DNA of 64,000 bases from Flavobacterium ichthyis. GTDB taxonomy: Bacteria > Bacteroidota > Bacteroidia > Flavobacteriales > Flavobacteriaceae. The notes under the pieces are model-generated. The model had not been told where the DNA came from and did not search any database. It worked only from the letters and a program-made list of their open reading frames with translations. The stretch covers positions 56,260 to 120,259 of the forward strand of contig NZ_JAABLM010000010.1 of assembly GCF_009915155.1 (NCBI RefSeq), written 5' to 3'. Position numbers and translations under genes: made by a program. Shown here piece by piece: positions 141 to 53,524 of the stretch (its first letter is position 1; each line of letters opens with the position of its first letter).

Positions 141-215
141 ATTTGTTTAAAAGTTGGAGGTTTATCGTTTAACGTTGCTTTCACAACAACTTTAAACTTT
201 AAACATTAAACAAAT
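141..215. repeat. Inverted degenerate heptamer arrays filling the moxR-DUF58 spacer
   Basis: From 141 to 176 the plus strand reads as consecutive words ending in GTT, mostly 7 bp (ATTTGTT, GGAGGTT, TATCGTT, TAACGTT, plus one 8-mer). From 188 to 215 it reads as words starting with AAC (AACTTTA twice, AACATTA, AACAAAT). The second set is the reverse complement of the first type, and the outermost words, ATTTGTT and AACAAAT, are exact complements. The array occupies nearly the whole spacer, from just after the moxR stop to 3 nt before the next ATG, and could fold as a long imperfect hairpin. Confidence 0.8.
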
Positions 216-218
216 TTT

Positions 219-1223
219 TTAAGGCACTTCAACCTCGTTTACAATTTTATTGATGATGTCCACCGAAGTTACATTTTCTGCCTCGGCTTCATATGTAATG
301 CCAATTCTGTGGCGAAGCACATCGTGAACAACCGCACGAACGTCTTCTGGAATTACATAACCTCTTCGTTTGATAAACGCATAACATTTTGCCGCAACAG
401 CTAAATTGATACTTCCACGAGGTGAAGCTCCAAAACTGATTAATGGTTTTAAACTTTCGAGTTTGTATTTTTCAGGGAAACGCGTGGCGAAAATAATATC
501 GAGTATGTATTTTTCGATTTTTTCGTCCATATAAACCTCGCGAACTACTTGTTGCGCACGAAGAATTTGATCGGTAGAAACCACTTGATTTACCTTGTCA
601 AACGCACCTTTTAAATTTTGACGAATTACCATGCGTTCTTCATCAATTTTTGGATATTCGATTACGGTTTTCAACATAAATCGATCCACTTGTGCTTCAG
701 GAAGCGGGTAAGTTCCTTCTTGTTCCACGGGATTTTGCGTAGCCAATACCAAAAAAGGTTTTTCTAATTTAAAAGTGGTATCGCCAATGGTAACCTGTTT
801 TTCTTGCATGGCTTCGAGCAAAGCCGATTGCACTTTTGCAGGGGCACGATTGATCTCATCCGCCAAGACGAAATTGGCAAAAATCGGTCCTTTTTTTATC
901 GAAAAATTATTGTCTTTAATATTGTAAATCATTGTTCCTACAACATCCGCAGGAAGCAAATCTGGAGTAAACTGAATTCTGCTAAAAGTACCGTGAACTG
1001 CTTGTGAAAGTGTGTTGATGGCCAGAGTTTTAGCTAATCCCGGAACACCTTCAAGCAAGATGTGTCCTTGACCTAATAATCCAATCAGCAATCGTTCTAC
1101 CATGTGTTTTTGGCCTACGATTACTTTGTTCATCTCCATCATCAGGAGGTCAATAAAAGCACTTTCTCTCTCAATTTTTTCATTGATTGTCCTAATGTCT
1201 AATGCTGTTGCATTTTCTTCCAT
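219..1223 (-). CDS. MoxR-family AAA+ ATPase
   Basis: A 334-residue AAA+ ATPase of the MoxR family. Visible motifs are Walker A GVPGLAKT (residues 59-66), Walker B FVLADEIN (about 118-125) and sensor 1 ATQNP (161-165) followed by the MoxR signature EGTYPLPEAQVDRF. MoxR proteins are thought to act as chaperones that help metal-cofactor or VWA-domain proteins mature; the client here is not visible. The ATG at 1223 gives the usual family length. The DUF58 gene downstream on the same strand completes the common MoxR-DUF58 pairing, and the two are probably co-transcribed across the heptamer-array spacer. Confidence 0.93.
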   Translation of the reverse strand: MEENATALDIRTINEKIERESAFIDLLMMEMNKVIVGQKHMVERLLIGLLGQGHILLEGVPGLAKTLAINTLSQAVHGTFSRIQFTPDLLPADVVGTMIYNIKDNNFSIKKGPIFANFVLADEINRAPAKVQSALLEAMQEKQVTIGDTTFKLEKPFLVLATQNPVEQEGTYPLPEAQVDRFMLKTVIEYPKIDEERMVIRQNLKGAFDKVNQVVSTDQILRAQQVVREVYMDEKIEKYILDIIFATRFPEKYKLESLKPLISFGASPRGSINLAVAAKCYAFIKRRGYVIPEDVRAVVHDVLRHRIGITYEAEAENVTSVDIINKIVNEVEVP

Positions 1224-1393
1224 AATTTAAGTTTTAAGGGCTTTTGTAAAATACATTTTGAATAGGGGTGCAAATTGAAAATTTAATTACACGTATCTTG
1301 TTAAGAATTAGTTAAAAAATTTCTGAATTCCTTGTCTTTAAGGATGATTTATGATTTTGTTTTCATAATTTTAGGTTCTAAAATATTTCTTGC

Positions 1394-2263
1394 GTGAAAA
1401 CTAAACTATCGCCTGTAATTGCAGGAACTATGAGTTGGGGAAAATGGGACAAAAACCTCACTCCAAAAGAGATGGCAAACCTAATCCACATTTGCCTGGA
1501 AAATAAAATTTCAACCTTTGATCATGCCGATATTTATGGAGGTTACACAACCGAAGCTGAGTTTGGTTTGGCTTTCGCCGAAAGTGGAATCAACAGAAAC
1601 TTGCTGCAATTCATTTCGAAATGTGGTATCAAGATGCCAAATGGAAATCGCGATTATAAAATAAAATCCTACGATTATTCTAAAGAATACATTATTTGGA
1701 GCGTTGAAAATTCTCTTAAAAATCTTAATACAGATTATTTGGACGTTTTGTTATTGCATCGTCCGAGTCCTTTGATTCAGGCTGATGAAGTTGCAGAAGC
1801 GGTTGAAAAATTAAAAAGCGAAGGCAAAATATTAGATTTTGGACTTTCGAACTTTACCAATCTTCAAACCGAATTAATTCGTTCAAAAACTGAAGTTTCT
1901 TATAATCAAATACAATTTTCAGCTACAGATTTTCAACCCATGATTGACGGAAGTTTAGATTATATGCAATTGCACAACATTCGCCCAATGGCTTGGAATC
2001 CTTTAGGAACGGTTTTCAGAGCAAAATCAGATGCAGCAAGACGATTAAAAACATTGTTAGCAGATTTGGTGGCCAAATACCACGTGGGTTCTGACACGAT
2101 TTTGTTAGCGTGGATTTTACAGCATCCCGCCAAAATTATCCCTATTGCCGGAACGGTAAATGTAGCGCGACTTCAACAACTCCCAAAAGCTGAAGAAATT
2201 AAACTCACACAAGATGAATGGTTTGCCATTTGGACAGAAAGTATGGGGAATGAAGTTCCGTAG
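1394..2263 (+). CDS. Aldo/keto reductase, YdhF-like
   Basis: A 289-residue aldo/keto reductase with the (beta/alpha)8 family motifs. The catalytic tetrad is Asp in FDHADIYGG (D43 or D45), Tyr48, Lys77 in SKCGIK and His122 in LLLHRPSP; the NADPH-binding part is near WNPLGTVF and IPIAGT. Overall layout resembles E. coli YdhF. The start is a GTG at 1394, because no ATG lies in frame upstream and the KTKLSPVIAGTMSWG beginning fits the family. Substrate is unknown. The stop codon at 2261-2263 abuts a heptamer array, and an SDR gene follows in the same direction, which suggests a small oxidoreductase operon. Confidence 0.92.
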   Translation: MKTKLSPVIAGTMSWGKWDKNLTPKEMANLIHICLENKISTFDHADIYGGYTTEAEFGLAFAESGINRNLLQFISKCGIKMPNGNRDYKIKSYDYSKEYIIWSVENSLKNLNTDYLDVLLLHRPSPLIQADEVAEAVEKLKSEGKILDFGLSNFTNLQTELIRSKTEVSYNQIQFSATDFQPMIDGSLDYMQLHNIRPMAWNPLGTVFRAKSDAARRLKTLLADLVAKYHVGSDTILLAWILQHPAKIIPIAGTVNVARLQQLPKAEEIKLTQDEWFAIWTESMGNEVP

Positions 2264-2312
2264 GATTTATGATTTAAGATATATGATTTATGAAGTGAGA
2301 TATAGGATTTGT
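2264..2312 (+). repeat. Degenerate heptamer array after the aldo/keto reductase stop
   Basis: Seven consecutive 7-bp words begin on the base after the stop codon: GATTTAT (twice), GATTTAA, GATATAT, GAAGTGA, GATATAG and GATTTGT. All start with GA and most match GATTTNN. No clear inverted partner arm is seen before the next ATG at 2359. Confidence 0.75.
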
Positions 2313-2358
2313 TCAGAAAATCATTGAGATTTACTTTTAGTAAAAAAATAAAACAAAC

Positions 2359-3111
2359 ATGAAAACAGTGTTGATTACAGGAGCCACAAGCGGAATAGGA
2401 CGAGCGACTGCTATTGAATTGGCAAAACATAATTTTAAATTGATACTTTGTGGTCGTCGAGAAGATCGATTGACAGAATTACAAATAGAATTAGAACATC
2501 GAACCAAAGTCCATACTTTAAATTTTGATGTAAGAAAGAAAAAAGCTGTTCAAAACGCAATTCATTCTTTGCCGACGGATTTTTCTACTATAGATGTTTT
2601 AATTAACAATGCGGGAAATGCTCATGGTTTAGATCCTGTAGAAAACGGAGATTTAGAGGATTGGGACGCCATGATTGACATTAATATTAAAGGACTTTTG
2701 TATGTTTCCAAAGCCATTATTCCCAAAATGGTGGAAAAAAAAAGTGGCCATATCATCAACATCGGTTCTACAGCTGCAAAAGAAGTTTACCCCCATGGGA
2801 ATGTTTATTGTGGCACAAAACATGCGGTAGATGCCATAAATCAAGGTATGAGAATGGATTTAAATCAATATGGAATTCGTGTTGGTGCCATTCATCCCGG
2901 AATGGTTGAAACCGAATTTTCTCAAGTTCGGTTTAAAGGAGATGCCGAACGTGCCGCTAATGTTTACAAAGGTTTTCAACCGCTAAAACCCGAAGATATT
3001 GCCGATATCATTCGGTTTGTCATCACCAGACCTTATCACGTAAACATTGCCGATTTGATGGTCATGTCAACCGCGCAAGCCTCTTCGACCATCGTCAACC
3101 GAATTATTTAA
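2359..3111 (+). CDS. Short-chain dehydrogenase/reductase (YdfG-like)
   Basis: A 250-residue classical SDR with a Rossmann fold. The cofactor-binding TGATSGIG is at residues 7-14 and NNAG at 83-86. The catalytic residues are Ser137 in INIGSTAA, Tyr150 and Lys154 in the YCGTK motif. Arg at the end of the second strand (CGRRED) suggests NADP(H) preference. Length and motifs resemble the YdfG/serine 3-dehydrogenase subgroup, which oxidises small hydroxy acids, but the substrate cannot be read from sequence. It is preceded by an aldo/keto reductase and followed, after 23 nt, by the AlbA_2 gene on the same strand. Confidence 0.93.
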   Translation: MKTVLITGATSGIGRATAIELAKHNFKLILCGRREDRLTELQIELEHRTKVHTLNFDVRKKKAVQNAIHSLPTDFSTIDVLINNAGNAHGLDPVENGDLEDWDAMIDINIKGLLYVSKAIIPKMVEKKSGHIINIGSTAAKEVYPHGNVYCGTKHAVDAINQGMRMDLNQYGIRVGAIHPGMVETEFSQVRFKGDAERAANVYKGFQPLKPEDIADIIRFVITRPYHVNIADLMVMSTAQASSTIVNRII

Positions 3112-3134
3112 TTTTTAGAAAATTCTTTCACTAA

Positions 3135-4295
3135 ATGATTAACAAGCGGTTGCTCATCAAAAATCTTTTGGCTCATAATGATGAGAATGTTTTTTATGAT
3201 AAAAAACGGCAGCTGAACTTACATTTTAAAGAAGGAAAAGCCAAATTTTTAAAACATATCTGTGCACTTTCAAATTCCAATCCATACAATAATTCTTACA
3301 TTGTAGTTGGGGTGGAAGACCAAGATAATGCCATCGTTGGCGATGATTTTTTTGACGACAGCCGCATTCAAAATCTTGTAAACGCTTATCTCGAAAATCC
3401 GCCGAAAATTCAGTACGAAAATGTACCTTTTCCACATCTTCCGAAAGACAAAGTCGTGGGATTAGTAACAATAAAACCAGGGAAACAAAAATCTTTCTTT
3501 AAAAAATCGATTTACACCATTCCCGCAAAAACTACTTTTATGAGGGTTGGAAGCAACTCGCTTCCGGTGGAAAATTTCCCTTCAGATACCAGCCGAAATC
3601 AGCAAAACATTGAATTAGTTAACAATTTAGAAAATAATTCGCGCAACAGCATTGCCGATACTTTGGAAGGTGTGATTGATTTTTTGAACAACCGCCACAA
3701 AGACATGCAAGCTGAATATAAAGTTTTTAAAGAGCTTTTCGTTGTATGTTGGGCGGGAATATCAAAAAAAGTTAAAGATAAAAAATATTTGTCACGTGTT
3801 GATATTGAGTTAGTTAACGAGCAGGTCAAGTTGTTTTATTCTGCGTTAGACGAAGTATTGATTGAATATGATGCCAACAGTTTTCAAATCACCGAATTTC
3901 TGCCGTTGGGATTAAACGATAAAACCAGCTATTATCCTTTAGAGCGCAAAAAAATCCTTTTTTTTGAAAATGGTTATTACAAAATCGAAACTGAATTTTT
4001 GTTCGAACCTCCGCAATACAATCGCAAAGTGTTGTTCCACATCTACAATGCGAACCTCGCAATTTTAAACAAAATGGAAAAAAAAATTCCCCTAAACGAA
4101 CGCGAAAAAAAAGACCTCCAAAACCTGCCATCAACCCTCATGATTTGCCACATGAACGATTTTCCAGACGCCAAGAAAATTTTGGCGGAAGCCAAACCCT
4201 TACTCAAATCCTTCGAAAATCCAGCCATTTACGTCAGCTTCAAAGAAGCGATGAGGATTCTCCGAAAAATGAAATACGACAGTTCCGACAATTAA
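3135..4295 (+). CDS. AlbA_2 (Schlafen-type) domain protein
   Basis: A 386-residue protein whose first 150 residues look like an AlbA_2/Schlafen-type domain, often annotated as ATP-binding. The pattern is LNLHFKEGKAKFLKHICALSN, then YIVVGVEDQD, then a strand with FMRVGSNSLPV. The rest (about 160-386) is predicted helical and I do not recognise it; it is rich in Lys and Glu and lacks membrane segments. AlbA_2 proteins are often annotated as putative regulators or nucleic-acid-associated factors, and the role here is unknown. The gene follows the SDR gene by 23 nt. A structured repeat follows its stop codon. Confidence 0.75.
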   Translation: MINKRLLIKNLLAHNDENVFYDKKRQLNLHFKEGKAKFLKHICALSNSNPYNNSYIVVGVEDQDNAIVGDDFFDDSRIQNLVNAYLENPPKIQYENVPFPHLPKDKVVGLVTIKPGKQKSFFKKSIYTIPAKTTFMRVGSNSLPVENFPSDTSRNQQNIELVNNLENNSRNSIADTLEGVIDFLNNRHKDMQAEYKVFKELFVVCWAGISKKVKDKKYLSRVDIELVNEQVKLFYSALDEVLIEYDANSFQITEFLPLGLNDKTSYYPLERKKILFFENGYYKIETEFLFEPPQYNRKVLFHIYNANLAILNKMEKKIPLNEREKKDLQNLPSTLMICHMNDFPDAKKILAEAKPLLKSFENPAIYVSFKEAMRILRKMKYDSSDN

Positions 4296-4320
4296 ATTTC
4301 TATAATTTTTTTTTTTAGCA

Positions 4321-4449
4321 GGAGCGAAAGGTCCGTGAATTTTTGCCATCCTTGTTCCTGCTGCTGTAACTCGCTTTAAACCTGTTTTTTGCAAACAGGT
4401 TTAAGAGCTCAAACAATTACAGCATCAGGGCTATGGGAAAATCTTTTGG
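4321..4449 (-). repeat. Long structured intergenic repeat, copy 1
   Basis: Between convergent genes. It contains a strong hairpin, with TTAAACCTGTTT (around 4376) pairing with AAACAGGTTTAA (around 4404), flanked by GAGCGAAAGGTC at one end and CAGGGCTATGGGAAAA at the other. A second copy in the opposite plus-strand orientation lies at 29213-29350. In both places the element has the same orientation relative to the gene it follows: the 153-residue membrane protein here and HAAO there. Confidence 0.8.
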
Positions 4450-4502
4450 CATTTTTATAATCGTCGTTGCCAATATTGCGAAAAAAATTTTCCGTTACAT
4501 CA

Positions 4503-4532
4503 TCCTGCAAGGTTTTTCAAAACCTTGTAGGA
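4503..4532. repeat. CCTGCAAGG/CCTTGTAGG palindrome, copy 1
   Basis: An imperfect palindrome: CCTGCAAGGTTTTT pairs with AAAACCTTGTAGG across a loop of a few bases. It sits 6 nt beyond the stop codon of the minus-strand membrane protein gene and could act as its terminator or as an mRNA-stabilising hairpin. Related copies are at 8860-8888 and 10008-10035. Confidence 0.8.
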
Positions 4533-4537
4533 TGAAA

Positions 4538-4999
4538 CTACCATCTCAAGAAATTAAACGGAACTTCGCCAAGATTTTTCACTTTATTAGCAATTTCAAT
4601 TTTTAATTGATGATAATTTTTTTGGTGGAATTCAGAGATTGGTACCACTCTACGGTTTTTTATAATGAGATACAAAACTTCAAAACTTCCTCCTTTAGAA
4701 GTTTCAATAACAGTTTGGAAGCCATCAAATTCCTCAAAATCGTAGTGCGCGAATTTTGAAAAAATGTTTTTTACGGAAATGTGTTTGTCAAGAATTTCTA
4801 TTAAAATCGCCCTTTTGTACGTTGCAATTAAGATATACATAAACGCTAAAAATCCTAAAATCCCAATGAATAAAAACTTAAGATTGTAATGATTGCTGAA
4901 AGCGGATTTGCGATTAAAAAATAGAAAGATTAGCGACACTAATAAAGGAAATGAACAAAATCCCATAATGTAAGCACGTAAAGATAGCTTAGATTTCAT
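4538..4999 (-). CDS. Two-helix membrane protein of unknown function
   Basis: A 153-residue protein that I do not recognise. It has two hydrophobic segments: about 10-28 (IMGFCSFPLLVSLIFLFF) and about 39-57 (LFIGILGFLAFMYILI). A soluble tail of about 90 residues follows, with alternating strands like a PH or YcxB-type domain. The start at 4999 (MKSKLSL) was chosen because it lies 4 nt after the upstream cytochrome stop; an in-frame ATG at 5014 would overlap that gene by 11 nt. It is probably translated together with the cytochrome c lipoprotein, but no functional link can be shown. Confidence 0.65.
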   Translation of the reverse strand: MKSKLSLRAYIMGFCSFPLLVSLIFLFFNRKSAFSNHYNLKFLFIGILGFLAFMYILIATYKRAILIEILDKHISVKNIFSKFAHYDFEEFDGFQTVIETSKGGSFEVLYLIIKNRRVVPISEFHQKNYHQLKIEIANKVKNLGEVPFNFLRW

Positions 5000-5003
5000 A
5001 GAT

Positions 5004-5384
5004 TTATTCTGCAAAAATCATCATGTATTTTTCCACTGCGATTAATTCTTCAGGAGTGAAAGTTTTCGTGATGGCAAAATTGGTTTTCATTACCGAATAT
5101 TGGCTTGGATCTACGATGGGTTCACTTTTTTCTTGCAAAAAAAGTTTAATGTCGGCATTATTTTTTTTGTAGATATTGGCAATTTCCTTGATACTTGGAC
5201 CAATGATTTTAGCATCCGGTTTATGGCAAGAATAACACATGCCTTTGCCATCGAAAATTTCTTGACCGAGATTGTCGGATTTGGTTTCCGTTACGGTTTC
5301 GGGAGCTGGTTTTCCAAAGTTTTCTTCGGTTTTTTTGCAGGAAAATAGGAGGAAAGTGAGTAGAATTAGAAACGCTGGTTTCAT
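5004..5384 (-). CDS. Cytochrome c lipoprotein
   Basis: A 126-residue lipoprotein with one heme c site. The start at 5384 gives MKPAFLILLTFLLFSC, a lipoprotein signal with the lipidated Cys at residue 16; an in-frame ATG upstream at 5420 would bury that signal. The heme-binding CYSCH is at residues 50-54, and a Met in VMKTNF near residue 99 is a plausible second axial ligand. The size and fold fit a class I cytochrome c exported to the periplasm and anchored in a membrane, probably carrying electrons in respiration. The partner oxidase or reductase is not in view. A small membrane protein gene follows. Confidence 0.88.
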   Translation of the reverse strand: MKPAFLILLTFLLFSCKKTEENFGKPAPETVTETKSDNLGQEIFDGKGMCYSCHKPDAKIIGPSIKEIANIYKKNNADIKLFLQEKSEPIVDPSQYSVMKTNFAITKTFTPEELIAVEKYMMIFAE

Positions 5385-5483: not shown

Positions 5484-5600
5484 TTCCCTTAGCCCCGATT
5501 GTAGCGGAAATCCTTCTCGATTTTTCTTCGGGAAGATTGTAGCGAAAAGCGGGAATTACGTTTAAAAAAATGCCTAGTCCCGAAGCTTCGGGAGGCTCCT
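5484..5600 (-). repeat. Sense-oriented 3' structured repeat, copy A (after hemB)
   Basis: Read on the minus strand directly after hemB: AGGAGCCTCCCGAAG, a TCCCGAAGCTTCGGGA palindrome (5578-5593), then TTCCCGCTTTTCGCTAC, a hairpin-forming middle, and finally GGATTTCCGCTACAATCGG with GGGCTAAGGG. The same order of blocks is seen after hemC (13254-13340) and after HAAO (28981-29142). Confidence 0.75.
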
Positions 5601-5607
5601 AAAAAAT

Positions 5608-6603
5608 TTATTGATTCAGAATTATTGCGGCTTCTTTGGCAAAATACGTCGAAATTAAACTGGCTCCGGCACGTTTGATACACATGAGTTGCTCCATCAT
5701 AATTTTGTCGTGGTCGAGCCATCCTTTTTCGGCAGCGGCTTTGATCATGGCATATTCGCCGGAAACGTGGAAGACGGTAACGGGAACATTTACAGCGTTT
5801 TTGACTTCACGAACAATATCCAGATAAGCAATCCCGGGTTTTACCATGACCATATCGGCACCTTCTTCAACGTCCCAAAGGGCTTCTTTCACGGCTTCAA
5901 GACGATTAGAATAATCCATTTGATAGGTTTTTTTATCTTTTGGAACCACGATATCGGCTTCTTTTGGCGCAGAATCCAAGGCGTCGCGAAATGGTCCGTA
6001 AAAAGCCGAGGCATATTTAGCGGAGTAGCTCATAATGCCAACATTTTCAAAACCTGCAGCATCAAGACCTTGACGAAGTCGAAGGACACGACCGTCCATC
6101 ATGTCGCTTGGTGCTACAAAATCGGCTCCGGCTTTTGCATGCGAAACCGCCATTTTTACGAGTGCTTCGTTGGTTTCGTCATTGGCGATATCACCGTTTT
6201 TGATGATTCCATCATGACCGTAAATGGAATATGGATCGAGAGCCACATCGGGCATCACAATCATTTCAGGACAGGCGATTTTGATTTCGCGAATGGCACG
6301 TTGCATCAATCCATTATCGTTCCAAGCTTCTTTTCCGGTATTGTCTTTCAAAGATTCATCAACCTTTACATAAATATTTACGGCACGAATTCCTAAAGCA
6401 AAAAGTTCTTTCACTTCTGCTACCGTTAAATCAATAGAACGACGGAAAATTCCGGGCATCGAGGGGATTTCTACTTTGTAGTTTTCGCCTTCGGCAATGA
6501 ACATTGGGAACATAAAATCGCTCGGACTTAATGTGGTTTCGCGGACTAATGAACGGATGGATTCGTTGGTTCGTAGTCTTCTACCTCTTTGTAATGGGAA
6601 CAT
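5608..6603 (-). CDS. hemB: Delta-aminolevulinic acid dehydratase (porphobilinogen synthase)
   Basis: Joins two 5-aminolevulinate molecules into porphobilinogen in the cytoplasm. The 331-residue length is normal. The two active-site lysines are visible: Lys196 in SAKYASAFYGPF and Lys255 (Schiff base) in MVMVKPGIAYLD. The metal site reads DVALDPYSIYGHDG (119-132), with Asp where zinc enzymes have Cys, so this should be the magnesium-type rather than the zinc-type enzyme. The antisense strand carries a long open frame that is only a shadow. hemB ends the minus-strand heme run; a heptamer array lies 2 nt before its ATG and a structured repeat follows its stop. Confidence 0.97.
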   Translation of the reverse strand: MFPLQRGRRLRTNESIRSLVRETTLSPSDFMFPMFIAEGENYKVEIPSMPGIFRRSIDLTVAEVKELFALGIRAVNIYVKVDESLKDNTGKEAWNDNGLMQRAIREIKIACPEMIVMPDVALDPYSIYGHDGIIKNGDIANDETNEALVKMAVSHAKAGADFVAPSDMMDGRVLRLRQGLDAAGFENVGIMSYSAKYASAFYGPFRDALDSAPKEADIVVPKDKKTYQMDYSNRLEAVKEALWDVEEGADMVMVKPGIAYLDIVREVKNAVNVPVTVFHVSGEYAMIKAAAEKGWLDHDKIMMEQLMCIKRAGASLISTYFAKEAAIILNQ

Positions 6604-6605
6604 GG

Positions 6606-6661
6606 TTTTAGCTTTTAGCTTTCAGCAATTAGCAATTAGCTACATGCTGTTGGCGATTAAA
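6606..6661 (+). repeat. Heptamer array, NNTTAGC type, between the four-helix-bundle gene and hemB
   Basis: Seven words in perfect 7-bp register from 6606 to 6654: TTTTAGC (twice), TTTCAGC, AATTAGC (twice), TACATGC and TGTTGGC, then the decayed GATTAAA. The array ends 2 nt before the hemB ATG. The stretch 6617-6633 is a perfect 17-bp inverted match to 7079-7095 on the other side of the four-helix-bundle gene. Confidence 0.85.
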
Positions 6662-6663
6662 AT

Positions 6664-7017
6664 TTATTTATTTAACTTTGATATTAAACTATTTAGCATT
6701 TTTTTAATCTCTTCAATTTGAAACAATAATTTCTCTGCTGTTTCTAGATTTAGAAAATTTAAATCTCTACTTAATATAAATTGATACTCTAATTCGTTTG
6801 CTGATCCGAATGCAATGATTAGAAATCGGGCAAAATCTTTATCTGAGTTTCTACCACAACCTTCCGCAATATTTGTTGGAATCGAACTTGAAGATCTTTT
6901 CATTTGACTAGTTAGTCCAAACTGTTCTTCTTTTGGAAAATTAATTACAATTTTATAAACATCTAAAGTCAATTGATGGGATTTTTGCCAAACTGTGAAA
7001 TTTTTATAATCTTTCAT
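6664..7017 (-). CDS. Four-helix bundle protein (S23/bAvd family)
   Basis: A 117-residue protein of the four-helix-bundle family first named from proteins encoded in 23S rRNA intervening sequences (S23) and related to Avd, the accessory protein of diversity-generating retroelements. Family signatures visible are FTVWQKSHQLTLDVYK near the start, FPKEEQFGLTSQMKRSSSSI, then NIAEGCGRNSDKDFARFLIIA with a conserved GSANELEYQ. Function of stand-alone members is not established; a nucleic-acid-binding role is likely from their positive surface. No reverse transcriptase or rRNA gene is nearby. The gene sits between hemF and hemB, and heptamer arrays reach within 4 nt of its ATG, so it looks like an inserted cassette. 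Confidence 0.93.
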   Translation of the reverse strand: MKDYKNFTVWQKSHQLTLDVYKIVINFPKEEQFGLTSQMKRSSSSIPTNIAEGCGRNSDKDFARFLIIAFGSANELEYQFILSRDLNFLNLETAEKLLFQIEEIKKMLNSLISKLNK

Positions 7018-7021
7018 ATTT

Positions 7022-7117
7022 TTAAAGCTGTTAGCTGTTAGCGATTAGCTGTTAGCTATTTTTTTACTTTTTTTGGAAGCTAATTGCTGAAAGCTAACAG
7101 CTAATCTCTATCAGCCA
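7022..7117. repeat. Inverted heptamer arrays between hemF and the four-helix-bundle gene
   Basis: The forward arm at 7022-7056 has words TTAAAGC, TGTTAGC (three times) and GATTAGC. After a T-rich spacer, the reverse arm from 7079 has words GCTAATT, GCTGAAA, GCTAACA and GCTAATC, the complements of the NNTTAGC type, and stays in register into the hemF stop codon at 7118-7120. The arms can pair into a long hairpin. Confidence 0.85.
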
Positions 7118-8029
7118 TTATACCCAATCAACGGGTTTTTCTAACACTGTAATTAATTTTTCTTCTTCTGAACCTGCTTCTGGGTGATAATCATAAATCC
7201 ATTGAACGTGTGGCGGCAAACTCATCAGGATGCTTTCGATTCTTCCATTGGTTTTTAGCCCGAAAAGAGTTCCTTTGTCATGAACCAAATTGAATTCAAC
7301 ATAACGACCACGACGGATTTCTTGCCAGGTTCGTTGTGCTTCGGTATAAGGTAAATCTTTTCTTTTTTCAACAATTGGAACGTATGCTTCAAGGAAAGAA
7401 TCGCCAACTTCGGTTACGAAATTGTACCAGTCTTCCATTGACATCTCTTCATTTGCCTTGCAATAATCGAAAAATAACCCTCCGATTCCTCTGGCTTCGT
7501 TTCGGTGTGCATTCCAGAAATAGGCATCGCATTGTTTTTTATATTTTGGATAAAATTCGGGATTATGTTTGTCGCAAGCGGTTTTGCAAGTTTGATGAAA
7601 ATGTGTGGCATCTTCTTCAAACAAATAATAAGGTGTTAAATCTTGTCCGCCACCAAACCAAGCCCCAACCAACTTCCCCGAAGGGGAAGAGTTATCATAC
7701 ATTTCAAAATAACGCCAGTTTGCATGAACCGTTGGCACCATTGGGTTTTTCGGATGAATGACCAAACTCAAACCGCAGGCAAAAAAATCGGCTTCGCCAA
7801 CGTTGAACATTTTTTGCATGGATTCGGGCAATTTTCCGTGAACGGCCGAGATGTTGACGCCTCCTTTTTCGAAAACTTTTCCGTTTTCGATGACACGTGT
7901 TCTTCCTCCACCGCCTTCTGGACGTTCCCAAATGTCTTCGCGGAATTTGGCTACTCCATCGACTTTTTCAAGTCCGGTGACGATGGTGTCTTGGAGGTTT
8001 TGTATGTAGGTGTAGAATTTATTTTTCAT
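7118..8029 (-). CDS. hemF: Oxygen-dependent coproporphyrinogen III oxidase
   Basis: Converts coproporphyrinogen III to protoporphyrinogen IX using O2, in the cytoplasm. The 303-residue protein shows the family signatures VPTVHANWRYFE, WFGGGQDLTPYYLFEED, and FNLVHDKGTLFGLKTNGR near the C-terminus. Just before WFGGG the sequence DNSSPSGKLVGA is encoded by a GC-rich palindrome (7661-7692), which seems to be an in-frame insertion at a surface loop. Its ATG overlaps the end of the upstream broken glycosylase-like gene by 11 nt. Presence of HemF rather than only HemN indicates aerobic heme synthesis. Confidence 0.97.
   Translation of the reverse strand: MKNKFYTYIQNLQDTIVTGLEKVDGVAKFREDIWERPEGGGGRTRVIENGKVFEKGGVNISAVHGKLPESMQKMFNVGEADFFACGLSLVIHPKNPMVPTVHANWRYFEMYDNSSPSGKLVGAWFGGGQDLTPYYLFEEDATHFHQTCKTACDKHNPEFYPKYKKQCDAYFWNAHRNEARGIGGLFFDYCKANEEMSMEDWYNFVTEVGDSFLEAYVPIVEKRKDLPYTEAQRTWQEIRRGRYVEFNLVHDKGTLFGLKTNGRIESILMSLPPHVQWIYDYHPEAGSEEEKLITVLEKPVDWV
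7661..7692. repeat. GC-rich palindrome inside hemF
   Basis: CTTCCCC and GGGGAAG (7673-7689) pair around a 3-nt loop, preceded by an AGCCCCAACCAA flank like that of the other GC palindromes. It lies in frame in hemF and encodes part of NSSPSGKLVG. Confidence 0.75.
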
Positions 8030-13169: not shown

Positions 13170-13253
13170 GGTGAAGTTTTACATTTATAATCTATAAGTT
13201 ATTGTTTTGTAGTTACAAACATCGGTATTTTTTGTTCCGAAGTTTTACAATTA

Positions 13254-13340
13254 GCCCCGACTGGAGGGAAAATCCTTTTTATTTTTTTTCAAATAAAAAG
13301 ATTTGGAAGGAAGGCGGGAACATGGTTTGTCCAAATGCCT
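13254..13340 (-). repeat. Sense-oriented 3' structured repeat, copy B (after hemC)
   Basis: On the minus strand, 16 nt beyond the hemC stop: TTCCCGCCTTCCTTCCAAATC, a hairpin with CTTTTTATTTG and AAAATAAAAAG arms, then GGATTTTCCCTCCAGTCGG and GGGCTAA. Block order and orientation match copy A after hemB and copy C after HAAO, while the middle sequence differs but keeps its pairing. Confidence 0.75.
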
Positions 13341-16936: not shown

Positions 16937-17073
16937 GAATTTGGAAATTTGAAAATGGTTCGTTCCTGATCAATTCCTTCTCTGCTAAATAAAATTCAAA
17001 TAGTTAAATATAATAAATTGTGATTTTGAACTTTTTGCTTTTTCCAAATCTTCAAATTCTCATTTTTCAAATC
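16937..17073. repeat. Inverted heptamer arrays between the AraC gene and hemH
   Basis: The left arm starts on the base after the AraC stop: GAATTTG, GAAATTT, GAAAATG, then GTTCGTT. The right arm, read as its complement from 17073 backwards, gives GATTTGA, AAAATGA, GAATTTG, AAGATTT and GGAAAAA, and ends 8 nt before the hemH ATG. About 75 nt of unrelated AT-rich sequence separates the arms. Confidence 0.7.
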
Positions 17074-17080
17074 AACACAA

Positions 17081-47238: not shown

Positions 47239-49041
47239 ATGCGAACGCCAATAGAACTTCAGATTCAAACTTTGCCCGACGGTCCGGGCGTTTACCAATA
47301 TTACGATAAAGACGATAAAATTCTTTACGTGGGTAAGGCAAAAAATTTGCGCAAGCGAGTGGCTTCGTACTTTAATAAATTGCACGATAACGGCCGAACC
47401 AATGTGCTCGTTCGGAAAATTGTAAACATCCGACACATTGTGGTTCCTACGGAAACGGATGCGTTGTTGCTCGAAAATAATTTAATTAAAAAACTGCAAC
47501 CACGCTACAATGTCATGCTCAAAGACGACAAAACGTACCCGTGGATTTGTATTAAAAAAGAACCTTTTTCGAGGATCTTTACCACCAGAAACATGGTCAA
47601 AGATGGTTCGGAATATTTTGGGCCATACACCAGTTTTAAAACCGTTCACACGCTTTTGGATTTAATCAAAGAATTATACCAATTGCGAACTTGTAACTAC
47701 GATTTGTCTCCAGAAAATATTGATTCGGGCAAATACAAAGTGTGTTTGGAATACCATATTGGCAATTGCAAAGGACCTTGTGAAGGCCATCAATCATTGG
47801 AAGAATATCAAAAAAATGTAGATGCGATTCGTGAAATTTTAAAAGGAAATTTTAGAGAAAGTTTGAAGGATTTTAAAACTTTGATGAAAAATTTGGCGTT
47901 GGAAATGCGATTTGAAGAAGCCCAGAAAATTAAGGACAAAATTGATGTTCTCGAAAATTATCAGGCAAAATCTACAATTGTAAATCCGAAAATTTCTAAC
48001 GTGGATGTTTTTTCAATCGTTTCTGACGAGAGTGCGGCTTATGTTAATTTTATCCAGATTTCTCATGGCGCGATTGTACGTTCGCACACGATGGAAATGA
48101 AGAAAAAATTGGATGAAACCAATCAGGAACTGCTCGAATTAGCAATCGTAGAAATCAGGGAGCGGTTTAGATTATTGTCAAAAGAAATTATTGTGCCTTT
48201 TGAAGTGGATTTAGGGGGTCCCGAAGCTTCGGGATTAAAAATTACTGTTCCGCAATTGGGCGATAAAAAGCAAGTGTTGGATCTCTCTGAACGCAATGCA
48301 AAATTTTACCGGATGGATCAAATGAAGCAGTTGCAAATTGTAGATCCGGATCGTCATACCAACCGAATTATGGCGCAAATGAAAAAAGATTTACGCCTTT
48401 CATCAGAGCCACGACACATTGAATGTTTTGATAACTCCAACATTCAGGGAACCAATCCTGTGGCGGCTTGTGTGGTTTTTAAAGATGGAAAACCCAGCAA
48501 AAAAGATTACCGACATTTTAATATCAAAACGGTTGAAGGACCAAATGATTTTGCTTCGATGGAAGAAGTGGTTTTCCGGAGATACAAGCGATTGCTGGAA
48601 GAAAATGAACCTTTGCCGCAACTCATTGTGATTGATGGTGGAAAAGGACAATTGTCTTCGGCATTAAAAAGTTTGGAACAATTAGATTTGCGTGGAAAAA
48701 TTGCCATTATTGGTATTGCAAAAAGATTGGAGGAAATTTTTTATCCCGGCGATTCCATTCCGTTGTATTTGGATAAAAAATCTGAAACGTTAAAAATCAT
48801 CCAGCATTTGCGAAACGAAGCACACCGTTTCGGGATTACATTTCATAGAAATAAACGCAGTAATAGCGCGTTAAAAACTTCAGTAGAAAGCATTCCGGGT
48901 ATTGGCGAAAAAACAATGATTACATTGATAAAGCATTTTAAATCTGTTAAAAGACTTTCGCAAGCCACAGAAAAAGAAATTTCTGACGTTATTGGAGTTT
49001 CAAAAGCGAAAAAAATTGTCGAATTTTACAGCAAAACCTAA
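47239..49041 (+). CDS. uvrC: Excinuclease ABC subunit C
   Basis: Makes both cuts in nucleotide-excision repair with UvrB. 600 residues: GIY-YIG domain (LPDGPGVYQYYDKDDKILYVGKAKNLRKRV, 11-40), UvrB-interacting UVR motif (NLALEMRFEEAQKIKDKID, near 215-235), RNase-H-like domain (ECFDNSNIQGTNPVAACVVF, then IVIDGGKGQLSSA), and a C-terminal helix-hairpin-helix (SVESIPGIGEKTMITLIKHF). A TCCCGAAGCTTCGGGA palindrome at 48219-48234 is read in frame as GGPEASGL near residues 326-333. The transcript seems leaderless. The patatin gene begins 15 nt after the stop. Confidence 0.97.
   Translation: MRTPIELQIQTLPDGPGVYQYYDKDDKILYVGKAKNLRKRVASYFNKLHDNGRTNVLVRKIVNIRHIVVPTETDALLLENNLIKKLQPRYNVMLKDDKTYPWICIKKEPFSRIFTTRNMVKDGSEYFGPYTSFKTVHTLLDLIKELYQLRTCNYDLSPENIDSGKYKVCLEYHIGNCKGPCEGHQSLEEYQKNVDAIREILKGNFRESLKDFKTLMKNLALEMRFEEAQKIKDKIDVLENYQAKSTIVNPKISNVDVFSIVSDESAAYVNFIQISHGAIVRSHTMEMKKKLDETNQELLELAIVEIRERFRLLSKEIIVPFEVDLGGPEASGLKITVPQLGDKKQVLDLSERNAKFYRMDQMKQLQIVDPDRHTNRIMAQMKKDLRLSSEPRHIECFDNSNIQGTNPVAACVVFKDGKPSKKDYRHFNIKTVEGPNDFASMEEVVFRRYKRLLEENEPLPQLIVIDGGKGQLSSALKSLEQLDLRGKIAIIGIAKRLEEIFYPGDSIPLYLDKKSETLKIIQHLRNEAHRFGITFHRNKRSNSALKTSVESIPGIGEKTMITLIKHFKSVKRLSQATEKEISDVIGVSKAKKIVEFYSKT
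48219..48234. repeat. TCCCGAAGCTTCGGGA palindrome inside uvrC
   Basis: A perfect 16-bp dyad identical to the ones at 5578, 15763 and 29307. In uvrC it encodes PEASG in frame at the domain junction before the nuclease domain. Confidence 0.85.
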
Positions 49042-49056
49042 TTATCTTTTTTTTAC

Positions 49057-51258
49057 ATGAAAAACTGGCTCATCATTCTCATAACGATTTTTTCCATTCA
49101 AGTTTTTCATGCACAAGAGGCAAAAAAACCGAAGATTGGATTGGTGTTGAGTGGTGGTGGTGCAAAAGGTTTGGCACATATAGGGGTTTTAAAAGTTCTG
49201 GAAGAAAATAATGTAGAAATTTCTTACATCGGTGGAACCAGCATGGGGGCCATTATCGGTGGTCTTTACGCTTCGGGCTACAAAGCTGCCGAGATTGATT
49301 CGATTTTTAGGACTACGGATTATGATGCTTTAATCCAAGATTATATTCCAAGATCTACCAAAAATTTTTACGAAAAAAGGAATGACGAGTTATACGCTTT
49401 ATCGCTTCCGTTTAATAAGATGCGATTGAGTTTCCCAAGGGCTTTGTCTAAAGGATTGTATAATTTTAATTTGATTAGCAAACTTACACATCATGTAAGA
49501 CACGAGCGCGATTTTAGCCAACTTCCCATTCCGTTTCTATGTATTGGAACGGATATTGAAACCGGAAAACAGGTATTGCTCAACAAGGGTTCTTTGCCGC
49601 AAGCGATGTTGGCAAGTGCAGCTTTTCCCTCTTTGTATATGCCGGTTGAAATTGACGGAAAAATTTTAATTGATGGCGGTGTGGTCAATAATTATCCTAT
49701 TGACGAAGTCAAAAAAATGGGAGCTGACATTATTATTGGTGTGGACGTTCAGGATGGTTTTCGGGATAGAAAACAATTGACTGATGCTACGAAAATTTTG
49801 GTGCAAATTACCAACATGCAAATGATTCAAAAAATGCCGGAAAATGTCAAAAAAACGGACATTTATATCAAGCCGGATATTGAAGGTTTTAATGTAGTTT
49901 CTTTTGACGAAGGCAATGAAATTATCAGTCGAGGTGAAAAAGCGGCTTTAGCAGTTGTAGATCAGCTAAAAAAAGTGAGTTCGTTGAAACCTTTGAAAGA
50001 AATTCCGAAACTTCAGGTTGATTCTTTATGTATAGACGATATTTCTATTTCAAAATTGGAAAATTATACGCGATCTTATGTGATTGGGCAATTAGGTTTT
50101 AAACCCGGAACTAGTATTTCTTACGAAGATTTGAACCGTGGAATCGCTACTTTAAATGCTACGCAAAACTTTAGCGCCATAGGTTACAATTTTGCCATAA
50201 ATGAATATGGAGCCGAAACGATGAATTTATCTTTGGTGGAAAATCCAAATCGCACTTATTTAAAATTCGGACTGCATTATGACGGATTGTACAAAAGTGC
50301 TTTACTTGTAAACATTACCCAAAAAAAAATGTTTTTTAAGAATGATGTTGCGTTATTAGACATTGGTTTAGGCGATAATTTCCGATATTACTTGGATTAT
50401 TACGTGGACAATGGCTTTAACATTAGTTATGGTTTTAAGTCGAGATACAATACTTTCAACCGAAATGTTTTGACTGATTTTAAAAATGGTGAACTTTTAG
50501 ATTTATTCGGTTTAAATTCGCTCAACATAGATTATACTGATTTTTCAAATAAAATTTATTTCCAAACCCTTTTTGCCCAAAAATTCTTGATTGGTGTGGA
50601 GGCGGAATTAAAGCATCTCAAGATCAAAAGTAGGACATTGGCCAACACAGAACCTATTTTGGAAAACAGCGATTATTTCTCTGGGAACGCTTATGTTCGT
50701 TACGATTCTATGGACAAAAAGTTTTTTCCTAAAAGCGGTGTTATGTTTAGCGGTGATTTTCAAACACTAGTGTACTCTTCGGATTACACCAAAAGTTTTG
50801 AACCGTTTTCTATTTTAAAAGGAGAATTGGCTTTCACAAAAACCTTTTGGAAAAAACTTACTTTGACCGCACAATCCGAAGCAGGATTTACGATTGGCGA
50901 AAGCACGATACCTTTTTTTGATTTTATTTTGGGCGGATATGGTTACAATACGATTAATAATTTTAGGCATTTTTATGGATATGATTTTGTAAGCCTCGCC
51001 GGAAACAGCTATATCAAAGGCTCATTAACAGCAGATGTCGAAATTTTTCGTAAAAATCACTTGAATTTTACTGCTAATTATGCCAATATAGGTTCAAAAA
51101 TTTTCGATACCGCAGATTGGTTTGCAGATCCTACACATTCGGGTTATGCCTTTGGTTATGGACTAGAAAGTATTATTGGTCCAATTGAGTTAAAACATTC
51201 GTGGTCACCCGAAACCAGAGACCATCATACTTGGATTAGTTTAGGATATTGGTTCTAA
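49057..51258 (+). CDS. Patatin-like phospholipase with BamA-like barrel
   Basis: A 733-residue outer-membrane protein. Signal peptide about 1-20 (ending FHAQ). The patatin domain (about 27-290) has the oxyanion hole SGGGAKGLAHIG, the nucleophile Ser62 in GGTSMGAIIGG and the Asp dyad in LIDGGVVNNYP. A POTRA-like segment follows, then a C-terminal 16-strand BamA/Omp85-type barrel (about 385-733) ending in HTWISLGYWF. This is the PlpD-like arrangement in which the lipase is carried by its own barrel. Substrate is a phospholipid by family inference. It follows uvrC by 15 nt. Confidence 0.93.
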   Translation: MKNWLIILITIFSIQVFHAQEAKKPKIGLVLSGGGAKGLAHIGVLKVLEENNVEISYIGGTSMGAIIGGLYASGYKAAEIDSIFRTTDYDALIQDYIPRSTKNFYEKRNDELYALSLPFNKMRLSFPRALSKGLYNFNLISKLTHHVRHERDFSQLPIPFLCIGTDIETGKQVLLNKGSLPQAMLASAAFPSLYMPVEIDGKILIDGGVVNNYPIDEVKKMGADIIIGVDVQDGFRDRKQLTDATKILVQITNMQMIQKMPENVKKTDIYIKPDIEGFNVVSFDEGNEIISRGEKAALAVVDQLKKVSSLKPLKEIPKLQVDSLCIDDISISKLENYTRSYVIGQLGFKPGTSISYEDLNRGIATLNATQNFSAIGYNFAINEYGAETMNLSLVENPNRTYLKFGLHYDGLYKSALLVNITQKKMFFKNDVALLDIGLGDNFRYYLDYYVDNGFNISYGFKSRYNTFNRNVLTDFKNGELLDLFGLNSLNIDYTDFSNKIYFQTLFAQKFLIGVEAELKHLKIKSRTLANTEPILENSDYFSGNAYVRYDSMDKKFFPKSGVMFSGDFQTLVYSSDYTKSFEPFSILKGELAFTKTFWKKLTLTAQSEAGFTIGESTIPFFDFILGGYGYNTINNFRHFYGYDFVSLAGNSYIKGSLTADVEIFRKNHLNFTANYANIGSKIFDTADWFADPTHSGYAFGYGLESIIGPIELKHSWSPETRDHHTWISLGYWF

Positions 51259-51264
51259 GGAATT

Positions 51265-51414
51265 TTAATTTCTTTCGATTTCGTTGTCATTATCACTAAA
51301 CGAATCTGGTTCTTGCTTAGGTTTGGTAGTCAAAACCCTGTAGAAAAAATATCCTGCAAAGGCTATCACTAGTCCTTGAGTGATTACCATGGTAATTAAT
51401 GCTTCAGTATTCAT
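51265..51414 (-). CDS. metS: MetS-family NSS transporter small subunit
   Basis: A 49-residue protein: MNTEALITMVITQGLVIAF, then the rest of a single membrane helix (AGYFFYRVL) and a charged tail rich in Asp and Glu. It starts 19 nt after the stop of the NSS transporter on the same strand. In Corynebacterium, MetS is a small subunit that MetP needs to import methionine and alanine. Size, one helix with N-outside layout and position all fit, although sequence identity in such a short protein is weak evidence. Confidence 0.82.
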   Translation of the reverse strand: MNTEALITMVITQGLVIAFAGYFFYRVLTTKPKQEPDSFSDNDNEIERN

Positions 51415-51433
51415 ACAATTATCGAATTAAAAA

Positions 51434-53104
51434 TTATAATGTGGCACGGCCTTCACGGCGTCTTTTTAAGAATGCTAAATAAACCAAAATACTTATAAAC
51501 AGGAATAGAGAAAGTAAGAGTAATCTTGCCATATCTAGATAAAAGATTTTATCCTTTAAAGTTTGAATAACCTGATTATCTGTGGCCATGGCTATTTGCT
51601 CTTTAATTCCCGCATGCGTTAACGTTTTGATAATTGATCCATTATCAAGATTCCATCCATTTCCTGAAAATAAACTTGCAAAGTTTCCAGACCAATCATT
51701 ATTAATAGGCTTAAATAATGATCCTAAAAAGATTATGATTAGTAAAATTGGAGTGACGAATTTTATGATGTATTTGAATAGTAAAGGAACCTTAATATCA
51801 GCACCACTATTGATTTCTGCCCATCCTTTATTCATTCCAAAAATCCAAGAGAATAAAATGGTTTCAAACATAGCGAATACTACTAAACTCACGGTTCCAG
51901 CCCAATAGTCATATTCGTCAAAAACGCCTTGATTGTAAAAAAATACGGTTGGTAATCCCATGATTAATATAAGCGCTCCAAATGACCAAGCTCCTTTATT
52001 TCTGTTCCAGTTAAATTCGTCTCGCATAAAGCCCATCCACGGCGTACCCATAGCGAGCGATGAAGTAATACCTGCGAAAAATAAAAGACCAAACCAAAAT
52101 AATCCGCCGAGTGCCGCTAAAAGTGGACCCCATTGTTGAAATAGATAAGGCATGGTTTGAAATGCCATTCCAAATCCTGCATTTTCAATTATCCAGTCTA
52201 ATCCCAAATAGCCAGCTGCAATTGGAATTACAATCATACTACCCAATACAACCTCAACAAATTCATTCATAAACCCTGCCGAAACGGCATTTAAAGCGAT
52301 ATCATCTTTTGGTTTGATATATGCTGCATAACAATGTATTGTACCCATTCCTACTGAGAGGGTGAAAAAAATCTGTCCGGCAGCAGCCATCCACACTTTT
52401 AAGTCTAAAAGTGAACTGTATTGTGGTGTCCATAAAAAATTTAAACCATCCCAAGCATTGGCATCCGGAAATAAATCAGAAGCTCCGCTGGTTCCAAGTG
52501 TTAACCCTCTAACTGCTAAAATTACTCCAAAAAGTATCAAAAGCGGCATTCCTATTTTAGCTACTTTTTCAATTCCACCGAGACCTTTTGATAATATGAA
52601 TGTGTTTAAGATAAGACATAAAATATAAAAAATCACAGCTTCATATGGAATTCCAGTAGTAGATTCGGCAACATTTACATATGAGTTAAAAAACTCAGCA
52701 ACACCCGTTTGACTCATGCCTTCAAATGTACCGGAAAGAGAATGATACACGTAGGACATCGTCCAAGACTCAATATAACAATAGTAAGCTGCTACAGCTA
52801 CATTTGTAAAAATTCCGAACACTCCAATATATTTAAGAACCCTGCCCTTTACCATTGAATCCAATATGTAAGGGGTACTATGATTTCCGAATTTACCTCC
52901 AAAACGTCCCGAAGCCCATTCAATGTATAACAATGGGATTCCCATCAATAAAAAACAAACCAAATAAGGAATAATAAATGCGCCACCACCATTTTGAACG
53001 GCTTGAACAGGGAATCGCAAAAAATTACCTAAACCTACAGCGTTTCCTGCCATTGCTAAAATGAGACCAACTCTGGAGCCCCACGATTCTGATTTTGACG
53101 ACAT
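51434..53104 (-). CDS. NSS-family sodium-dependent transporter (MetP-like)
   Basis: A 556-residue neurotransmitter:sodium symporter with about 12 membrane helices. TM1 carries the Na+-binding motif GLILAMAGNAVGLGNFLRFP with the unwound centre NAVGLGNFLRFP. GIPLLYIEWASGRFGG, FFTLSVGMGTIHCY and GITSSLAMGTP are other family blocks. Together with the 49-residue MetS-type subunit it probably imports methionine, alanine or another amino acid with Na+. The complement of 53136-53143 gives TATCTTTG, a good -7 element 32 nt before the ATG. Confidence 0.93.
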   Translation of the reverse strand: MSSKSESWGSRVGLILAMAGNAVGLGNFLRFPVQAVQNGGGAFIIPYLVCFLLMGIPLLYIEWASGRFGGKFGNHSTPYILDSMVKGRVLKYIGVFGIFTNVAVAAYYCYIESWTMSYVYHSLSGTFEGMSQTGVAEFFNSYVNVAESTTGIPYEAVIFYILCLILNTFILSKGLGGIEKVAKIGMPLLILFGVILAVRGLTLGTSGASDLFPDANAWDGLNFLWTPQYSSLLDLKVWMAAAGQIFFTLSVGMGTIHCYAAYIKPKDDIALNAVSAGFMNEFVEVVLGSMIVIPIAAGYLGLDWIIENAGFGMAFQTMPYLFQQWGPLLAALGGLFWFGLLFFAGITSSLAMGTPWMGFMRDEFNWNRNKGAWSFGALILIMGLPTVFFYNQGVFDEYDYWAGTVSLVVFAMFETILFSWIFGMNKGWAEINSGADIKVPLLFKYIIKFVTPILLIIIFLGSLFKPINNDWSGNFASLFSGNGWNLDNGSIIKTLTHAGIKEQIAMATDNQVIQTLKDKIFYLDMARLLLLSLFLFISILVYLAFLKRRREGRATL

Positions 53105-53524
53105 AAATTTTCTTAAATAAAGTTAAATTGAGTCTCAAAGATAAAAAAACAATTGAAAAAAGACATAAAATCTAAAGATGGCGCTCAATTTTTATGATAT
53201 TGGTAGTTTTTTAATAATCTTGTTCGATATTTTTAAGCTTTATTATAACTGGAGTATTATGCAATTTTATTTTTATTAAAATCAATCTTAAAGCAAAAAC
53301 AATAAAAATGTAGGTGATTATGTTCTAAAATCGCAAATTTTTCCGATATTTGTTGCTATGAATACAATTTGGTCAGGACTTTTACCACATTTAAAATTTC
53401 TCATTAAAAGAAATCCGGAATGAATTTAATTAGATAATTAGTCAATTAGAAAATGAGCTAATTATCTAACGACAAAACCCATTTTCTAATTATCTAATTT
53501 TCAAAATTATCTAATTAAAAAGTT
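53105..53524. other. Divergent intergenic region NSS / hmgA
   Basis: A 420-nt AT-rich region without a gene. The left end has the NSS -7 element (minus-strand TATCTTTG, 53136-53143). A weak plus-strand -7 (GATATTTG, 53345-53352) is possible for hmgA. The right end is an octamer array. I see nothing else. Confidence 0.5.
53426..53518. repeat. Inverted octamer arrays upstream of hmgA
   Basis: Here the period is 8 bp. The left arm has TTAATTAG, ATAATTAG, TCAATTAG and AAAATGAG (53426-53457). The right arm carries the complements CTAATTAT (twice), CTAATTTT and CTAATTAA, with CCCATTTT as the inverse of the AAAATGAG word. The array ends 6 nt before the hmgA ATG. Confidence 0.75.

Follow-up and report, generated by a model that had tools for sequence, protein, structure and literature searches.

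The window analysed here, a stretch of 64,000 nucleotides from the Flavobacterium ichthyis genome (contig NZ_JAABLM010000010.1, positions 56,260 to 120,259), carries between hemF and hemB a cassette in which a single gene for a 23S rRNA-intervening sequence protein (IVP) is enclosed by degenerate arrays of a 7-bp word that extend from stop to start codon (Table 1). Along the coding strand, the order is hemF stop, TTAGCNN array, loop, facing GCTAANN array, IVP start, IVP stop, a further GCTAANN array, and hemB start. The initial annotation, made from the nucleotide sequence, had listed the region 6606–7117 as a bare array and had overlooked the protein gene that forms its middle. The gene product belongs to the IVP family according to both PF05635 (E 7.6e-42, 142.3 bits, curated cut-off 33.8) and TIGR02436 (E 1.4e-41, 141.1 bits, cut-off 24); a hit to bAvd (PF22296, E 5.7e-06) stays under the curated cut-off. 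Its closest named relatives, 89% identical, are those of Flavobacterium glycines and F. tiangeerense, and the solved structures of IVP relatives (2gsc and 2rld) hold five chains each. To our knowledge, no function has been established for IVP. The copy in the window is not located inside a 23S rRNA gene, its place being between hemF and hemB, and Rfam identifies no rRNA in the window.

Table 1. Features of the window discussed in the text, with positions counted from its first nucleotide
Feature	Position	Strand	Assignment or test result
IVP gene (23S rRNA-intervening sequence protein, four-helix bundle), 117 aa	6664..7017	-	PF05635, TIGR02436
Cassette 5′ side (coding strand): TTAGCNN array after hemF stop, then facing GCTAANN array before IVP start	7018..7117	-	self-folding
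Cassette 3′ arm: GCTAANN array from IVP stop to hemB start	6604..6663	-	lag 7 p 0.0005
hemF (coproporphyrinogen oxidase), upstream host gene	7118..8029	-	PF01218
hemB (porphobilinogen synthase), downstream host gene	5608..6603	-	PF00490
Solo hairpin array, word GTTTAAN	138..218	.	lag 7 p 0.0005; fold z -4.2
One-sided solo array, word GATTTNN	2264..2312	+	no hairpin; first base just 3′ of stop codon
araC–hemH spacer with two short facing GAATTTG arms	16937..17080	+	array not significant
Solo hairpin octamer array, word NNAATTAG	53423..53524	+	lag 8 p 0.0005; fold z -6.2

Periodicity was assessed as the maximum over lags 4–13 relative to 2000 dinucleotide shuffles, which sets a p floor of 0.0005, and folding as a z score against 200 shuffles; we chose the cut-offs applied to the arm score (17), the sharing score (14), and the lag score (10 and 12). 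The 5′ side of the cassette is periodic at lag 7 (p 0.0005) with a fold z of -5.2, the 3′ arm has a fold z of -2.5, and Tandem Repeats Finder reports period 7 within both, at 7026–7057 and 6606–6641, respectively. Five array loci had been proposed in the window, of which four are significant at 7 or 8 bp, whereas the locus at 16937 is not (top lag 8, p 0.33; fold z -0.8). Similarly, facing arms had been proposed at four of the five, and are supported at three (138, 6604–7117, and 53423); the GAATTTG arms at 16937 are visible but not significant, and none exist at 2264, where the tested segment 2264–2358 is periodic at lag 7 (p 0.0015) and has a fold z of +1.0. The positions and registers given for the arrays are correct. 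Those at 2264 and 16937 open on the base directly following the stop codon, the cassette array abuts the hemF stop at 7117, 3 nt separate array and stop near 215, and the distance to the next start is 2–8 nt at four loci; for the start on the left of 141, whose reading frame continues beyond the window edge, the distance was taken from the sequence itself. By eye, the GTTTAAN word resembles the flanks of a resident IVP gene (locus L008), and the closest arm matches of the arrays at 2264 and 53423 are a second resident IVP locus (L010) and an IVP locus of another species (L035), respectively. An open stretch of about 38 codons (53309–53422) that stops just 5′ of the octamer array is perhaps a decayed gene end. 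Two Flavo-1 RNAs (RF01705) are found elsewhere in the window, at 5487–5560 and 13249–13325.

The arrangement at hemF–hemB is one of many. The F. ichthyis genome contains eight IVP genes, seven of which have facing arms, each with its own word (the eighth, L007, has none). Across the genus, 296 of the 299 genomes examined have an IVP gene, with up to 16 matches among those listed, and the family occurs in many phyla. In a first set of 117 loci, composed of the eight resident genes, the 29 best-scoring of the genus, and the best 80 of 408 relatives, flank-to-flank complementarity lies above the 99th percentile of dinucleotide shuffles at 73 loci (7/8 in the own genome, 25/29 in the genus, and 41/80 in named genomes of many phyla), and its median is 18 as compared with 11 at 43 control genes of the window. 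After addition of 40 loci picked by us among the matches listed in the genus search, and removal of three duplicates in which the same DNA carries two names (L190=L045, L199=L043, and L203=L062), facing arms are found at 101 of 154 IVP loci. Removing the duplicates left the probabilities assigned below unaltered; the share of co-directional triples in sampled stretches and the count of pairs that involve L223 or L229 still include them. The period at the 97 clearly periodic loci is 7 in 66, 8 in 24, 9 in 4, 10 in 2, and 5 in 1, and 6 in none, with medians of 4.7 and 4.9 units in the two arms. The arms fit the space between genes closely, their outer ends having a median position of -2 nt relative to the upstream stop and 8 nt 5′ of the next start. 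The shared architecture with many different words in gaps between genes, which the initial annotation had proposed, is thus borne out; the pattern is real and general, larger than first claimed and partly different from it.

In 134 of 149 cases, the IVP gene shares its direction with the genes on either side, compared with 128 of 169 non-IVP triples at the same loci and 49–56% of triples in the genus stretches that were sampled. This orientation bias may reflect dependence on read-through transcription, transcription-linked insertion, or selection. Stop codons in all three frames occur in 53% of 5′ arms and 56% of 3′ arms (34% and 28% in shuffles), a mild effect, and the idea of an all-frame stop cassette was set aside. 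Variation within the arrays is concentrated at particular phases of the unit in 34 of 115 arrays (p<0.05), which is not what plain mutation of slipped copies would give. As judged by eye, TTAGC- or TCAGC-type words recur beside other genes at IVP loci of Cyanobacteria (L071, L081, L094, and L097), Planctomycetes (L072, L076, and L083), Chloroflexi (L078 and L096), Verrucomicrobia (L084 and L099), and a Desulfotignum (L077). The genes downstream of six IVPs (L072, L076, L083, L084, L086, and L099; planctomycete, verrucomicrobial, and one unassigned) have N-termini that look alike, which gives the impression of a single operon location occupied in two phyla.

Word and protein go together. All pairs of armed loci were compared with respect to IVP identity and arm likeness; pair tables were adopted because single-linkage clustering of words collapsed 99 of 103 loci into two groups. 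At unrelated sites, i.e., where flanks have neither nucleotide nor translated similarity, the word is shared by 23/28 pairs with IVP identity of at least 70%, by 69/109 at 60–70%, 207/705 at 50–60%, 60/2727 at 40–50%, and 18/1064 below 40%, whereas shuffled arms give 1, 4, 6, 11, and 0 shared pairs in the same classes. The Mantel correlation is 0.43, a value reached in 0 of 2000 permutations. Coupling extends to pairs formed between Bacteroidota and other phyla (26/34 at 60–70%, 134/341 at 50–60%, and 32/742 at 40–50%), persists upon removal of TTAGC-type loci (22/27 at 70% or more, 17/1273 at 40–50%), and is present in the genus set alone, where 22/27 pairs above 70% have the word in common. 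Related sites show the same trend, from 0/5 below 40% through 1/15, 15/58, and 98/142 to 184/197 at 70% or more. Words of the IVP paralogues within the own genome differ: of 21 pairs, a single one scores high enough to count as shared. Words made independently at each locus are not supported, as words are common to cassettes with similar IVPs, also between phyla, and a process that ‘writes’ words was not seen. Because the word tracks the IVP across unrelated sites and phyla, arms and gene evolve as a unit, and on the same grounds each IVP probably recognises the word of its own arms.

Arrays are not confined to cassettes. In a sample of 464 kb (the window and 20 stretches of 20 kb) from the 2.86 Mb and 37 contigs of the F. 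ichthyis genome, gaps that score at least 10 number 26 for lag 7, where 6.6 are expected, and 13 for lag 8, where 5.8 are expected, an enrichment at both lags. The remaining lags between 4 and 13 are close to expectation, the largest departures being 8 vs 4.4 at lag 13 and 3 vs 6.1 at lag 5. A run over lags 4–24 shows the multiples raised as well (15 vs 5.1 at lag 14, 8 vs 4.2 at lag 16, 9 vs 3.8 at lag 21, and 13 vs 5.0 at lag 24), together with a lesser rise at lag 18 (8 vs 3.6). The 19 solo arrays, i.e., those without a gene, in this sample match the arms of the resident IVPs at 14.2, compared with 11.3 for length-matched foreign sets (s.d. 0.95), and 17 of 3889 foreign sets, with duplicates removed, equal the resident match. 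With duplicates still included, the length-capped test gave 9 of 3869; without a length cap, where resident arms are longer (878 vs 590 nt), 2 of 1000 foreign sets were as good. The polarity of solo arrays near stops and starts showed no trend among 14 usable arrays. Long 7-mer arrays were also seen, with the words CTTTCAA, TTAGCTG, and CGTGAAA, in two genomes of the genus that have neither PF05635 nor TIGR02436 (G062 and G169).

Turnover between species is shown by a comparison of orthologous spacers, a check that had been proposed for strains: depending on the species, the hemF–hemB, groES–groEL, and araC–hemH gaps are occupied by differing words, by an IVP cassette, or by neither. Among 50 of 60 hits taken for the first of these, hemF and hemB are adjacent or separated by IVP alone at 22 loci, own genome included. 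Of these, four contain an IVP cassette, with TTAGC words in three and GTTAAC in the fourth; an 11-bp gap without array is found at one, and the other 17 gaps are repeat-like with at least five words, as judged by eye. Among the 10 adjacent pairs in the second batch of loci, a lag-7 score of 10 is attained by six. For araC–hemH, 30 of 61 genomes were compared, and the GAATTTG arms of the own spacer were not seen by eye in the 29 relatives, at least five of which have a CTTAAAGC array in the spacer instead. This array stands just 5′ of the hemH start codon in L296, L298, L299, L300, and L305.

The groES–groEL comparison comprised 30 of 61 loci drawn by GroES likeness, that of the own genome included, and two further loci added because of their IVP; two of the 30 contain an IVP cassette. 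In genome G055, the cassette lies between groES and groEL, while four genomes with identical GroES (G049, G005, G042, and G036) have a gap of 81–86 bp; the 11 nt directly before the start are common to G055, G049, G005, and G042. In this one case, the old spacer was replaced, not split, and no target-site duplication is visible. Cassettes at this operon are found in four species (L200/L321 in G055, L327 in G051, L202 in G019, and L221 in G024), the latter three IVPs being 77–80% like that of G055 and having AAGC-type words. One gene-less groES–groEL gap of 141 nt (L325) has facing TTGGCTN/TTAGC-like units and the look of a miniature cassette, and the gaps of three species (L334, L344, and L349) contain a CCCC/GGGG-rich inverted repeat that apparently represents a separate repeat family. 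The clearest sign of recent copying in these sequences is a pair of loci on contig C17 of G034 (L015 and L191), where IVPs that are 97% identical and have the same TTGTATA-type word occupy two gaps 2.8 kb apart; the genes that follow both gaps presumably act in fatty-acid oxidation, judging by their N-termini. In the gap ahead of a thiolase-like gene, G036 and G019 have a TACAATA-type cassette, but G046 has a GAGTATTAAG cassette with a different IVP.

The arrays had also been suggested to be kept as hairpins. If a conserved RNA hairpin were maintained, G·U mismatches between arms should exceed A·C; at the 73 armed loci we find 93 G·U and 140 A·C, and for 103 loci (three duplicates included) the counts are 105 and 187 in Bacteroidota, and 24 and 27, i.e., about equal, elsewhere. 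The A·C bias in Bacteroidota fits an enrichment of A on the coding strand. Because G·U is not preferred on the coding strand, a conserved RNA stem is unsupported.

The statement that no described system behaves in this manner was too strong, since heptamer arrays, the 23S rRNA intervening sequence (IVS) with its IVP gene, and the repetitive extragenic palindrome doublets with their associated tyrosine transposases (REPIN-RAYT) are all precedents. As described in the available part of PMC4990558, the IVS shares with the cassettes a PF05635 protein, a single small gene between terminal inverted repeats, as found here around the IVP gene, a patchy spread, and suspected mobility. It differs in that the cassettes lie between protein genes and have degenerate 7–8-mer arrays as arms. 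Closest in logic is the REPIN-RAYT system, in which extragenic inverted words stand beside their own resident gene in each group (PMC3116915, available part), and the 19 solo arrays of the sampled genome match the flanks of resident genes in the corresponding manner. Unlike REPIN-RAYT, the gene is a four-helix bundle located inside the cassette, the arms are tandem 7–8-mers, and a resident tyrosine transposase is lacking, the Pfam matches of the enclosed gene in the window being IVP and bAvd only.

Tandem heptamers in gaps are the property shared with the TAACTGA repeats, which, according to the accessible text of PMC4679880, are often near start codons and mixed with other heptamers in some Bacteroidetes; the same text places heptamer arrays in Beggiatoaceae, Cyanobacteria, and a few Bacteroidetes, and proposes slippage and regulation. 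By the lag-7 excess given above, the gaps analysed here belong with such arrays. That study, however, as far as available, concerns a single word in almost exclusively direct repeats, its main text has no occurrence of ‘helix bundle’ or ‘intervening sequence’ and no link to IVP, and tandem TAACTGA pairs (up to one mismatch) number 0 in the window. The short tandemly repeated repetitive (STRR) sequences of filamentous cyanobacteria are also short, hairpin-capable tandem repeats in gaps (PMC2670836, in part). No gene is tied to them in the available part of that paper, whereas IVPs of Pseudanabaena and Nostoc (L071 and L081) adjoin TTAGC/CTAAC heptamer arrays. With Avd of diversity-generating retroelements, the relationship is one of family, through the bAvd hit below cut-off; the likeness of Avd to PF05635 is noted in the accessible portion of PMC10053308. 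In PMC5524665 and PMC8700078, four-helix bundle genes are enumerated and nothing further is said in the portions available. A literature search that did not extend to most subscription papers and preprints gave no listing that states a link of IVP to tandem or heptamer arrays, word coupling, or mobility.

We consider it reasonably probable that the cassettes around IVP genes are mobile elements of small size in which the word of the arms is specific to the protein, that the IVP reads its own word, and that gene-less arrays are derivatives or remnants of cassettes. In such a mechanism, an IVP that is five-chained like its solved relatives would bind four to five tandem words in each arm and thereby mark both ends of the cassette, which a host or partner enzyme would then copy or exchange into a different gap. 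Units of the array would later be gained or lost through slippage, and both neighbouring genes would keep working because the cassette points along the operon, carries stop codons in its arms, and leaves an A-rich stretch ahead of the following start.

Several observations speak against mobile, word-reading cassettes as the origin of the arrays. The IVP of the window has no recognised catalytic domain in Pfam, and neither a target duplication nor an excision product nor transposition itself was seen. No facing arms were detected at 53 of 154 IVP loci, including L007, and 19 of 117 loci exceed the 99th percentile when flanks of other IVP loci serve as control, a hard control because words are common to many loci. 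The pairs with at least 70% identity at unrelated sites are not independent, because at least 16 of the 28 involve L223 or L229, the flanks of which differ from those of other loci. Solo arrays show no preference for co-directional gaps (27/45, vs 627/986 of all gaps), and the CTTAAAGC array upstream of hemH looks grown from a short seed in relatives (L295 and L302), perhaps by slippage. Moreover, the number of IVP genes does not follow the array excess. Of the three genomes of the genus without IVP, G062 still has arrays in 5 gaps (1.1 expected), some of them long, and G169 has 6 (4.0 expected), two of them long, while G035 has no excess (4 vs 3.7). Genomes with one IVP give 11 vs 2.3 (G039) and 6 vs 4.7 (G127), one with 12 gives 5 vs 4.2 (G200), and raised values are seen in G031 (12 vs 3.0), G187 (9 vs 3.1), and G162 (7 vs 1.8). 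A resident IVP as a requirement for arrays is therefore unsupported as a rule, the excess overlapping among genomes with 0, 1, and 9–12 IVPs; as IVP-free genomes contain arrays, these can persist after a resident IVP is gone or originate in its absence.

Template switching perfects inverted repeats, and replication slippage of 7–8-bp units combined with it would produce arrays in unconstrained gaps, with IVP present there by chance. Both the seed-grown appearance of the hemH-upstream array and the IVP-free genomes with arrays agree with slippage, and a polymerase contact has been proposed to favour 7 nt (Mrazek et al. 2007, as cited in the available part of PMC4679880). A chance association does not account for coupling between word and IVP at unrelated sites and across phyla, for flank complementarity above both shuffles and the 43 control genes of the window, or for the phase-uneven variation in 34 of 115 arrays, and we regard slippage as an unlikely sole explanation. 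The coupling could also be expected if the arrays were sites at which IVP, as an RNA-binding regulator, controls translation of its own and neighbouring genes without mobility. Positions right before start codons and the co-directional setting suit such a role, which has been proposed for the TAACTGA repeats (PMC4679880, available part). The patchy filling of orthologous gaps with differing words, the missing wobble signal of a conserved RNA stem, and the solo arrays outside co-directional gaps make regulation the least probable of the alternatives in our judgement.

Since the protein family is identical, the cassettes might instead be classical intervening sequences, harmless passengers with arms that form an RNA stem cut by RNase III as in 23S rRNA; the accessible part of PMC4990558 describes the Coxiella IVS as having terminal inverted repeats and being excised by RNase III. 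The window copy lies between protein genes, however, G·U is not favoured among the arm mismatches, and passenger status alone leaves the tracking between word and protein unexplained, which places the probability of this alternative low. Returning to the mobile cassettes, a wider proposal can be put forward tentatively, at somewhat less than an even chance: IVP may be the word reader of a large unrecognised class of transposase-less mobile elements of gene gaps, in which a five-subunit ring would read about five degenerate 7–8-mers in each arm, with one word for each IVP lineage, and the scattered arrays of heptamers and octamers in Bacteroidota, Cyanobacteria, Planctomycetes, Chloroflexi, and further groups would be its footprints.

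A protein-to-word code derived from genomes would supply a predicted target for each IVP that can be tested at the bench, and its relevance follows from the near-universal presence of IVP in the genus and its wide spread among phyla. The cassettes, in turn, offer an origin for the heptamer arrays of bacterial gaps, which have long been known and for which no explanation has been agreed.

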